Shown here: piece by piece, positions 39,802 to 42,576 of the stretch | Numbering within the stretch: position 1 is the first letter of the stretch | Layout: each line of letters opens with the position of its first letter | Assembly: GCF_036250695.1 (NCBI RefSeq) | Contig: NZ_CP109427.1 | Coordinates: 7,068,001 to 7,132,000, forward strand | From: Streptomyces sp. NBC_01497 | Lineage (GTDB): Bacteria > Actinomycetota > Actinomycetes > Streptomycetales > Streptomycetaceae | DNA length: 64,000 bases | Direction of reading: 5' to 3' | Position numbers and translations under genes: made by a program | Notes under the pieces: model-generated | What the model saw: the letters and a program-made list of their open reading frames with translations, nothing else | Told to the model about the DNA's origin: nothing | The model's database searches: none

Positions 39802-40227
39802 ATGGCAGACCATCAGGAAGCATCCGTCACCCTGCCGAGTGAGCCGGCCTCGGTCCCCGTGGCCCGAAGATACGTCGCCGACATCCTGACGGAATGGGGC
39901 CTTCCGGTAGGTGCGGAGACTGCGGAAACGGTCCGCCTGGTGGTCTCGGAGCTCACGACGAACGCCGTCCTGCACACCTTCGGCCGCTCGCCGACCTTCA
40001 CCGTGGACATCGCGCTCGACCGCCACGAACACCTCAGGATCGGCGTCACGGACAGCCACCCCGGCCGGCCCCAGCGGCTGCCCGCGGCCGTCCGGCAGGA
40101 CAACGGGCGCGGCATGGTGATCATCCGCTGGCTGGCCGCCGAGTGCGGCGGGCAGATGTCCGTCACCCCGACAGCGGAGGGCGGCAAGACGGTCTGGATC
40201 ACCCTGCCGTGGACGGCGGCGGTGTGA
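39802..40227 (+). CDS. RsbW-like ATP-binding protein
   Basis: A 141-residue GHKL ATPase without a histidine phosphorylation domain: N-box ELTTNAVLH (50-58), G1 region DSHPGRP (about 83-89) and G2 NGRGMVII (about 99-106). Streptomyces have dozens of these, acting as anti-sigma factor kinases or as parts of conservon-like systems. No sigma or anti-anti-sigma gene is adjacent. ATG 39802 is chosen over upstream in-frame starts that would add an arginine-rich tail from repeat DNA. Confidence 0.85.
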   Translation: MADHQEASVTLPSEPASVPVARRYVADILTEWGLPVGAETAETVRLVVSELTTNAVLHTFGRSPTFTVDIALDRHEHLRIGVTDSHPGRPQRLPAAVRQDNGRGMVIIRWLAAECGGQMSVTPTAEGGKTVWITLPWTAAV

Positions 40228-40290
40228 GGCTCGCGTTCCGCCGCCGCCACCACCGCCACCGTCCTCGACCCACGATCGGCTGACGCGGGG

Positions 40291-40767
40291 TCAGGCCACG
40301 CGTCCGTACCAGACGTCCTTGGTCCAGATGTGTTCGAGCCGCACCGAGGAGCCGGTCTTCGGCGCGTGCCAGATCCGGTTGTGGCCCGCGTAGATGCCCA
40401 CGTGGTACACGTACCCGCCGCTGTGGAAGAAGACCAGGTCGCCCCTGCGCCTGGTGCGGGCGGAGACGTGTCTGGTGCGGTTGTACTGCTGCTGTGTGGT
40501 GCGGGGCAGCGACTTGCCCGCCTTCTTGTACGAGAACGCGGCGAGGCCCGAGCAGTCGAAACTGCGGGGACCCGTCGCGCCCCATCGGTACGGAGCCCCG
40601 GCCTTGGAGGCCGCGATGTGCACCGCCCGGGTGGCCAGGGGCGAGGCGGCGTGCGCGTCGGGCGTCGCGCCCGGGGCGACCAGGGTGCCCCCGACGGCGA
40701 CGAGCGTGAGGGCCGAGACGGTGCCGGCGCGCGAGAACAGGGACGGGACATGAACCTGCGCAGTCAT
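40291..40767 (-). CDS. Secreted NlpC/P60 peptidoglycan hydrolase
   Basis: A 158-residue enzyme: a Sec signal peptide (1-40, hydrophobic core SALTLVAVGGTLV, AHA-A cleavage region) followed by a single NlpC/P60 domain with catalytic C72 (FDCSGL), H122 (YHVGIYAG) and H134 (WHAPKTG). These cysteine peptidases cut peptide stems of peptidoglycan. No SH3 or coiled-coil targeting domain is present. The ribosome site GAAGGG (40774-40779) abuts a c-di-AMP riboswitch, so expression should respond to c-di-AMP. Confidence 0.93.
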   Translation of the reverse strand: MTAQVHVPSLFSRAGTVSALTLVAVGGTLVAPGATPDAHAASPLATRAVHIAASKAGAPYRWGATGPRSFDCSGLAAFSYKKAGKSLPRTTQQQYNRTRHVSARTRRRGDLVFFHSGGYVYHVGIYAGHNRIWHAPKTGSSVRLEHIWTKDVWYGRVA

Positions 40768-40781
40768 GCGCAACCCTTCGT

Positions 40782-40948
40782 CAGCCGCCTGTGAAGGATG
40801 ACCTGTCGGGTTCGGGCCAACGAAGGTGCCCGGCCGCCTGAGCGGCTTCACCCCGAGGAACGGTCGCGTCGCCGCGCCGGTCCGTAACGCTCGGGTCCTC
40901 CACTCCTGCCGATCCACTCGTGTTCGCACGAAATCCGGTACGGCGGCA
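40782..40948 (-). ncRNA. c-di-AMP (ydaO/yuaA-type) riboswitch
   Basis: On the minus strand, 5' to 3', the segment has GCCGCC (40942-40947), GGACCCGAGCG (40888-40898), GGGGTGAAG (40846-40854), CCCGAACCCGACAG (40803-40816) and closing GGCGGC (40784-40789). The first and last form P1. The order and wording of these blocks are those of actinobacterial ydaO-type leaders, as I recall them from rpfA. The aptamer ends about 4 bases before the GAAGGG ribosome site of the NlpC/P60 gene, so control may be at translation. The fold was not computed. Confidence 0.85.
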
Positions 40949-41053
40949 GGACTCGGCGTCCGCCCGGACCGCCTCACCAGGTGGCGAGGGCTTGCGAGCT
41001 GTCGCAGGGATCTTGACTCGCAGAGCGGCGATTTCCGAGTCGAAACGACGATA

Positions 41054-41069
41054 TGTGAATCTCGTCACA
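41054..41069. promoter_or_regulatory. CRP-type palindrome upstream of the riboswitch
   Basis: TGTGA-N6-TCACA is a perfect match to the CRP consensus half-sites. It lies in an AT-richer patch about 105 bases upstream of the riboswitch 5' end. Crp is known to regulate cell-wall hydrolase genes during Streptomyces germination. No convincing -10/-35 pair was found. Confidence 0.6.
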
Positions 41070-41277
41070 CTTGAGCCATTCGTGATGATATGAGGCGATC
41101 TGGGTGCGGTCCGGACCCCCTCCCGGCCCCCGCACCTGCGGGACTGTCCTCACGCGCGGCGAGCGCCCGGACGCCTCGCGCAACCCGGAAGCCCTCCGTG
41201 CGGCCGGTGCCTCCTAGGCCGAACGAGGAGGCGCCGGCGTCCCGGCTGGGCCATCCGTGGATGCCTCCGAGCGGACG

Positions 41278-41586
41278 TCAGCCGGCCGGGCCCGGCGGCA
41301 GCGCCACGCGGCCCGCCCGCCGCTCGCCGTCGAGTACCCGCAGGGCCCGGGCGAGCGTGCCCGTGTGCAGTTCCGACTCGCCCCGGCCGTGCATGCGGGT
41401 GAGTGCGTCGCGCAGTTCCAGGACGCGTGCCGGCAGCGCCTGCGCCGCCCGCAGCGCGGTGTACGTATCGGATTCGCGGGCCGGATTGATCCGGGCGATC
41501 AGGTCCACGACGGCCAGATAGCCGTCCACCACGTCGCACTCGGCCCGCGTCAGCGCGGGCAGCGGCGGCAGTTCCGGCGGGAGCAC
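41278..41586 (-). CDS. Hypothetical protein downstream of the ClpP paralogue
   Basis: About 102 residues from GTG 41586. A helical, charged protein (TRAECDVVDGYLAVVDLIARI, LPARVLELRDALTRMHGRGE, TGTLARALRVLDGERRAG) with no membrane segment or known motif. GTG 41586 follows the clpP stop by seven bases with a GGTGA nearby. An ATG at 41634 would overlap clpP by 41 bases and add 16 Pro/Ala-rich residues. It reads as coding and is probably co-transcribed with the ClpP gene. Function unknown. Confidence 0.6.
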   Translation of the reverse strand: MLPPELPPLPALTRAECDVVDGYLAVVDLIARINPARESDTYTALRAAQALPARVLELRDALTRMHGRGESELHTGTLARALRVLDGERRAGRVALPPGPAG

Positions 41587-42241: not shown

Positions 42242-42262
42242 GGGCTGCCCCTCACTGAAGAA

Positions 42263-42287
42263 TGTACAGGACGTACAGAACTATGAT
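42263..42287. promoter_or_regulatory. YefM-type operator and -10 between ClpP paralogue and antitoxin
   Basis: TGTAC-AGGAC-GTACA (42263-42277) is an inverted repeat containing TGTACA, the core reported for YefM operators. A TATGAT at 42282-42287 ends seven bases before the antitoxin ATG, implying a leaderless transcript. The site is only 22 bases from the ClpP start, so it may control both genes. Confidence 0.6.
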
Positions 42288-42294
42288 GGGGACT

Positions 42295-42576
42295 ATGGCT
42301 CACGAGATTCCGGTGACGCAAGCCCGTGCCGAGTTCGCCGAACTGATCAACCGCGTCGTCTACGGCAACGAGCGCGTGGTCGTCACCCGGCACGGAAAGC
42401 CCCTGGTCGCCCTGGTCTCAGCGGCTGACCTGGAGTTCCTCGAAAGCACCGAGGAGGCGGTCGACGAGCAGGCCGTCCGTTCCGTCTCCAGCGTCCGTGA
42501 GGTGCCGTCCGCTCCCGGCGAACGGCCGCGGTTCGGCATCGCCGCCCACTACACCGGCGAGCACCGCGACAGCTAG
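42295..42576 (+). CDS. Phd/YefM-family antitoxin without adjacent toxin
   Basis: A 93-residue protein with the Phd/YefM fold: IPVTQARAEFAELINRVVYG (residues 5-24) and ERVVVTRHGKPLVALVSAADL (26-46). A longer acidic/disordered tail follows. YefM binds DNA and normally neutralises a YoeB-type RNase encoded next to it. Here nothing toxin-like follows for over 500 bases. ATG 42295 is chosen because the -10 lies seven bases upstream; an ATG at 42262 would overlap the operator. Confidence 0.88.
   Translation: MAHEIPVTQARAEFAELINRVVYGNERVVVTRHGKPLVALVSAADLEFLESTEEAVDEQAVRSVSSVREVPSAPGERPRFGIAAHYTGEHRDS

Follow-up and report, generated by a model that had tools for sequence, protein, structure and literature searches.

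An NlpC/P60 hydrolase gene of Streptomyces preceded by a Crp-type palindrome and a predicted ydaO-type riboswitch whose pseudoknot overlaps the ribosome-binding site

Double control of a muralytic gene by cAMP and c-di-AMP is already described for Streptomyces rpfA and Corynebacterium glutamicum nlpC. RpfA is described as being under Crp regulation (citing St-Onge 2015; PMC5693915), and for the Streptomyces rpfA gene, c-di-AMP is reported to induce premature transcription termination (PMC10117811). As to the S. coelicolor riboswitch, one source notes that it lacks a canonical terminator and is Rho-independent (PMC9960051), and another states that it seems to be translational, acting by ribosome-site blocking (citing Haiser 2009 and Block 2010; PMC8079986). 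The C. glutamicum nlpC gene (cg2402) carries a cAMP-dependent GlxR site and a ydaO-type riboswitch without a canonical terminator, which is described as probably translational, with a proposed pairing of CTCC with GGAG of the ribosome site (PMC9960051). The reports on rpfA and on C. glutamicum nlpC differ on whether actinobacterial c-di-AMP riboswitches act on transcription or translation.

Riboswitches of the ydaO type are described as off-switches (PMC11481543), ydaO is named among those in which the ligand-bound aptamer blocks the ribosome site (PMC10907184), and the crystallised ydaO RNA has a loop and a tail (CUCCUUCG and CGAAGGAG) of the kind seen in the leader studied here (PMC5393176). 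S. lividans TK24 is listed with six ydaO leaders (PMC8079986), and S. venezuelae with six hydrolase genes that carry the riboswitch (PMC11481543); according to these sources, the leaders precede genes of secreted or wall hydrolases, including one NlpC/P60 endopeptidase and several peptidases, and the gene described below may already be among them. Among the titles and abstract openings covered, mostly of freely available literature, no report on Crp plus c-di-AMP control of a Streptomyces NlpC/P60 gene was found.

The gene lies in a 64,000-nt stretch of the Streptomyces sp. NBC_01497 chromosome (hereafter, the window), on the minus strand at 40767–40291, and encodes a 158-aa NlpC/P60 peptidoglycan hydrolase (NLPC_P60, PF00877, 90.4 bits, cut-off 23). 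Among solved structures, 39 distinct PDB sequences matched the protein at E ≤ 0.001, with CD1368 and Tn916-like hydrolases at the top, and its N-terminus, judged by eye, resembles a secretion signal, so that the protein reads as a putatively secreted one. The minus-strand order is a Crp-type palindrome, CAAGAT, a leader hairpin (H0), the c-di-AMP aptamer, GAAGGG, the ATG and the NlpC/P60 reading frame, the ATG being preceded by GAAGGG plus six bases; a further minus-strand frame terminates upstream at 41278. Farther off, a small frame (42262–42576) beside a ClpP-like frame resembles a Phd/YefM-type antitoxin by eye. On the protein side, the diadenylate cyclase domain was matched once in the genome, and a Crp-type HTH scored 67.9 bits.

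The locus thus resembles the S. coelicolor rpfA leader, a muralytic enzyme gene of the same genus under Crp and a c-di-AMP riboswitch, and differs from it in encoding an NlpC/P60 protein rather than an Rpf transglycosylase and in that the mechanism reported for rpfA is transcription termination. It also resembles C. glutamicum nlpC in enzyme family and in both control elements; that gene, however, is the first of a seven-gene operon and has additional MtrA and EsrR sites (PMC9960051). With the ydaO/yuaA class (RF00379), the leader shares the core helices and their sequences, and its loop is complementary to the 3′ tail as in the crystallised RNA; but in this leader, and in many actinobacterial members, the ribosome site shares bases with the 3′ strand of the pseudoknot, and in this leader a hairpin around the start codon comes after it.

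Orthologues were collected by a search of 121 Streptomyces genomes for NlpC/P60 matches, all of which had some match at E ≤ 1e-20. The best match was below 1e-57 in 98 genomes (own included), about 1e-42 to 1e-50 in 6, and 3e-31 or weaker in 17; since these 17 have weak matches only, the close family is not universal in Streptomyces. A first set held 30 orthologous loci (the window's own gene, L005, and 29 others) and a second the best 80 among the matches listed, together 110 leaders which include repeats, 99 being distinct. For structure, 47 leaders were aligned, namely the window's and 46 of the best-80 set picked by eye for spread.

The initial annotation had placed a ydaO-type riboswitch in the leader of the NlpC/P60 gene, with an Rfam covariance scan as its check. 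cmscan returned RF00379 at 40950–40771 (minus strand) with 42.6 bits against a gathering cut-off of 38 (E 1.4e-6), the sole match at gathering level within the window, which confirmed the assignment. RF00379 also matched in 30 of 30 orthologous loci (own included), all with E < 5e-4 and with a partial match in L031; 20 of them scored at or above 38 bits and the other 10 at 33.0–37.7. The alignment of 47 leaders showed that the Rfam alignment is shifted at its 5′ end and that P1 and P2 truly start with GACGCC-GAGUCCUGCCG, which gives corrected aptamer boundaries of 40958–40786, with P1 at 40958–40955/40789–40786 and P2 at 40951–40944/40911–40904. Relative to these positions, the Rfam model sets the 5′ strand of P1 some 18 bases downstream in the window's leader. 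This misplacement probably lowers the leader's score, and it may cause some other Streptomyces members to score below the cut-off or to escape detection. From its class, the ligand of this copy would be c-di-AMP.

In the 47 leaders, P1, P2, PA, Pj, P4 and P5 were paired in 100% of cases, P3 in 97.1% and P2b in only 67.6%, and the pseudoknot helix as drawn in 78.7%. Over the whole drawn structure, H0 and the start-codon hairpin included, 94.7% of cells were paired, compared with 38–48% when the partners were slid and 94.1% when letters were shuffled among sequences. Five pairs had changes on both sides, whereas shuffling gave 2.8 (and 5 or more in 8 of 500 shuffles); they fall in H0, P3 and the extension of P2. 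Most of the core pairs are invariant and are therefore neutral evidence on the fold. H0 itself (40989–40972, minus strand, upstream of P1) has 7 pairs, with 99.0% of cells paired and 2 pairs changed on both sides; it is conserved and covarying. The ligand-free minimum-energy fold had a weak z of −1.15 (25 of 200 shuffles as good) and did not recover the aptamer, so it was left out of the evidence for the fold.

The P5 loop strand CCUUCGU (40826–40820) can form 7 bp with the 3′ strand ACGAAGG (40781–40775), and the latter overlaps the ribosome-binding site GAAGGG (40779–40774). Complementary strands for the pseudoknot expected of such a riboswitch are present in this leader, and its 5-bp core in all 47. 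The riboswitch had been described as ending four bases before GAAGGG; the adjacency holds, but the separation does not, since the ribosome site overlaps the pseudoknot strand. The core, CUUCG/CGAAG, was identical in 47 of 47 leaders, and the two outer pairs were absent in most; in the 110 leaders listed, loop and tail paired over 5 bp in 95, more in 9 and 4 bp in 1, and 5 were not readable by script. Because the five core pairs are invariant among the orthologues, they provide no test within the NlpC/P60 family.

The pairing was therefore compared across families, in 92 non-redundant riboswitches taken from Streptomyces and further actinobacterial genera. They remained from 127 after removal of repeats, of L169 (30.4 bits) and of L221, in which the core appeared to be wrongly located; one part of the underlying actinobacterial search took in 98 genomes, 81 of them with a match. 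Other matching pairs of loop and tail were seen in other families, such as CCUUCCU/AGGAAGG, CCUUCCG/CGGAAGG, UCUCC/GGAGA and CUCAC/GUGAG. The longest perfect pairing of loop and tail averaged 5.36 bp, compared with 4.68 (sd 0.09) when partners were permuted (0 of 10,000 as high), and when each distinct paired motif was represented once (n = 45), the values were 5.18 vs. 4.39 bp, above all permutations. These statistics ignore shared ancestry, and some best pairings lie outside the loop (in L002, GGCAT with ATGCC), so the test is not restricted to the loop. The paired tail segment ended 4–22 nt before the start codon in 76 of the 89 riboswitches for which a start was found, and contained the purine core of the ribosome site in 67 of the 89, the other 22 not. 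Specific pairing between aptamer and ribosome site, as occlusion of that site would call for, was thus found across the 92 riboswitches. It backs one part of the earlier proposal that the riboswitch gates ribosome access; the gating itself stays a deduction from this pairing.

A different reading of the same pairing is that the riboswitch acts on transcription, the ligand causing premature termination without a canonical hairpin, and that the loop/ribosome-site complementarity is no more than the aptamer pseudoknot, ending at that place by coincidence. It accords with the termination reported for Streptomyces rpfA (PMC10117811), with the description of the S. coelicolor riboswitch as free of a canonical terminator and Rho independent (PMC9960051), and with the crystallised ydaO RNA, whose loop and tail share the complementarity, which therefore need not have evolved for translation (PMC5393176). 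Against it, a simple scan of 40200–41300 gave no terminator-like site on the minus strand and one on the plus strand, within the gene, in agreement with the earlier remark that no terminator hairpin is visible; the paired tail contains the ribosome-site core in most actinobacterial members with a start found (the 67 vs. 22 above); and the data on C. glutamicum nlpC favour translation (PMC9960051). We consider action on transcription rather unlikely here, and action on translation, turned off by the ligand, more likely.

The opposite direction of switching would require that, without ligand, CCUUC of the PA helix (40797–40793) pairs with GAAGG of the ribosome site, so that the ligand turns the gene on. 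This 5-bp complementarity is present in the window's leader, but across the 92 riboswitches it was unspecific, 2580 of 10,000 permutations being as high, and an anti-ribosome-site hairpin formed by the PA 3′ strand was rejected as a candidate; ydaO riboswitches are, moreover, described as off-acting (PMC11481543). An on-switch is thus highly improbable. In the minimum-energy fold without ligand, the ribosome site is already buried in a nested helix that uses the P5 loop strand, so the computation does not set the direction of switching.

Immediately downstream, the start codon lies in a hairpin, GCGC-AUGACU-GCGC (drawn wider, UGCGCA-UGAC-UGCGCA; 40772–40757, core 40771–40758, minus strand), with 99.5% of cells paired and, by the commonest-pair rule, no pair changed on both sides in the 47 leaders. 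Codon 2 in the 110 loci listed was ACT in 82, AGT in 12, ACC in 7, AAT in 4, TCT in 3, CCC in 1 and TCC in 1, and its third base was T in 101 of these 110, compared with 5.4% in the rest of the gene (best-80 set); codon 3 was GCG in 108 of 110 loci among the matches listed. The amino acid at codon 2 changes, yet the third base stays T and codon 3 is nearly fixed, more constraint than the protein seems to require, which points to selection on the RNA in the start-codon region, by a count that repeats and shared ancestry weaken. In L132, the one leader altered in both arms, C-to-T changes would leave G-U pairs, and the best predicted fold there is not the start-codon hairpin.

When start contexts were permuted, the observed value was reached in 0 of 5000 permutations over all 101 contexts and in 1 of 5000 over the 45 Streptomyces contexts. 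As 581 of 5000 reached it over the 56 contexts outside Streptomyces, the hairpin was rejected as a general actinobacterial feature and is claimed for the NlpC/P60 family alone. A CGCC...GGCG arrangement ahead of GUG/AUG-GCG starts was also seen in other families; outside Streptomyces it was not beyond permutation. In the NlpC/P60 family the hairpin may take part in repression.

The perfect TGTGA-N6-TCACA that had been described upstream of the riboswitch is present at 41069–41054 (minus-strand reading TGTGACGAGATTCACA, 0 mismatches) and is predicted to be a Crp-type operator. The perfect pattern occurs at 8 sites in the 9.08-Mb genome, compared with 1 for the pattern read backwards, and is thus enriched. 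Of the seven further perfect copies, judged by eye, four (L171, L172, L170 and L177) comprise two at the 5′ ends of nuoA- and cydA-like frames and two directly behind the same sigma-factor-like frame, which occurs near both chromosome ends; a fifth is internal to an open frame, and two remained unassigned. Loose matches are not in excess in the window, with 9 at ≤2 mismatches compared with 10.4 expected by chance.

At the orthologous place, a Crp-like site (≤2 mismatches) was found in 103 of 110 loci among the matches listed, or 92 of the 99 distinct leaders among these matches. Counted at −365 to −240 of the ATG, it was found in 74 of 80 loci (best-80 set) and 29 of 30 (30-locus set), compared with 17 of 2240 in the controls, which were 125-nt stretches running from each locus's first base up to 3400. 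This control rate is slightly too high, as L086, L110 and L126 have short upstream DNA and their controls include the gene's own promoter. The loci without the site were L026, L074, L083, L099, L121, L134 and L139, L083 having one at −430, off the conserved place, which was left uncounted. Perfect palindromes were present in 5 of the 110 loci listed (3 in the best-80 set and 2 in the 30-locus set). In 60-base bins around the best-80 genes, the sites (≤2 mismatches) peaked at the same place, in bins with 49 and 27 loci, the highest other bin being about 3.5 kb downstream (11 of 75 loci). The strong S. coelicolor Crp motif, GTG-N6-GNCAC (as quoted in PMC10033298), was fitted by the window's own site on the plus strand and by only 37 of the 110 listed loci on either strand. 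Conservation of the flank GAACGG came close to that of the half-sites, so that additional factors may be bound there as well.

The palindrome also keeps a fixed distance from a −10-like hexamer, CAAGAT (41010–41015, minus strand). From the start of the Crp-like site to AAGATC, 54–56 nt were counted in 89 of the 97 loci with both elements among the matches listed (56 in 79, 55 in 8 and 54 in 2; 55 in the window's own gene), and the distance from the −10 end to the ATG varied from 237 to 295. The exceptions were 8 loci with 31, 38 or 43 nt, some of which are probably chance GATC matches, and 7 further loci had no −10 match. Because the spacing is fixed despite the variable leader, the palindrome looks like part of one promoter. 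No sigma-70 consensus promoter was found in a simple scan of 40200–41300. A transcript start near 41003, 7 bases past the hexamer, would put the centre of the Crp site at about −59, not far from −61.5, where class I Crp sites classically lie. A conserved palindrome in promoter position was therefore found, the position resting on the −10-like element, and Crp would be its likely binder and an activator.

The palindrome may instead bind another Crp/Fnr-family protein or be a repressor site. The genome has 16 HTH_Crp_2 matches, 5 of them above the cut-off, and several in vitro attempts to show binding of Streptomyces Crp to predicted sites are reported to have failed (PMC10033298); the palindrome, however, is perfect and of the Crp/GlxR type, copies of it stand at the 5′ ends of the nuoA- and cydA-like frames mentioned above, and a centre near −59, given the predicted transcript start, fits an activator. 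Another binder or a repressor site is accordingly improbable, and activation by Crp is preferred.

The distribution of Crp-like sites over other hydrolase genes with the riboswitch was surveyed in five genomes (own and four others; 32 riboswitches without L169), with families drawn by eye. Pfam was used to check one member per named hydrolase family; the L001 and L163 proteins, cut by the locus end, gave no match. A Crp-like site (≤2 mismatches) was present in 5 of 5 NlpC/P60 and 8 of 8 LysM-SLT leaders, in the latter about 218–241 bases before the aptamer (L002, L154, L157, L158, L159, L161, L164 and L165). In the Rpf-LysM family, a palindrome was found in 3 of 5, all TGAGA-N6-TCTCA without GTG/CAC half-sites. 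Within 350 nt before the aptamer, neither a palindrome (≤2 mismatches) that has GTG/CAC half-sites nor, on either strand, a GTG-N6-GNCAC was found in the five Rpf-type leaders (one Pfam-checked, the others grouped by eye). Two further groups, one with an M23 peptidase, had a Crp-like site in 2 of 14.

The elements of the leader are real, conserved and probably functional. The reading we favour, with a probability of roughly 0.7, is that Crp-cAMP switches transcription of the NlpC/P60 gene on and c-di-AMP closes its ribosome site. Crp-cAMP at 41069–41054, about 59 bases before the predicted start, would activate RNA polymerase at the CAAGAT −10 element, and the leader of about 236 bases would fold into the c-di-AMP aptamer. 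With c-di-AMP in place, the loop of P5 (CCUUCGU) would dock on ACGAAGG, which overlaps the ribosome site, and keep the ribosome off, and the AUG hairpin would add to this exclusion, so that the gene would be on when cAMP is high and c-di-AMP low. For the convergence of the two messengers on one muralytic enzyme, as put forward in the initial annotation, the motif, its conservation and its fixed spacing to the −10-like element were found; the convergence as such is deduced from them.

The CTCC/GGAG proposal and the statement on ydaO occlusion are already published, so the pairing idea is not new and the comparative test is; what is added here is a start-codon hairpin apparently under RNA selection and comparative support for docking on the ribosome site. 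With the pseudoknot strand lying over the ribosome site in this gene and many relatives and a specific match of loop and tail, the question of transcription or translation becomes testable, and the bases to change are named. Worth following are this test of the ribosome-site pseudoknot, the start-codon hairpin, and the Crp-like sites that precede only some of the c-di-AMP-controlled hydrolases. The conservation suggests that joint control of a wall hydrolase by cAMP and c-di-AMP is old and stable in Streptomyces rather than the quirk of a single promoter. A wider model, which we offer tentatively and hold to be somewhat doubtful, is that a Crp promoter precedes the c-di-AMP leaders of at least two Streptomyces hydrolase families (NlpC/P60 and LysM-SLT) and not of others, combined with a translational platform of two locks, in which the P5 loop is brought onto the ribosome site by c-di-AMP and the RNA-selected hairpin holds the AUG. 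If this is true, cAMP and c-di-AMP would converge on a distinct group among the wall hydrolases.
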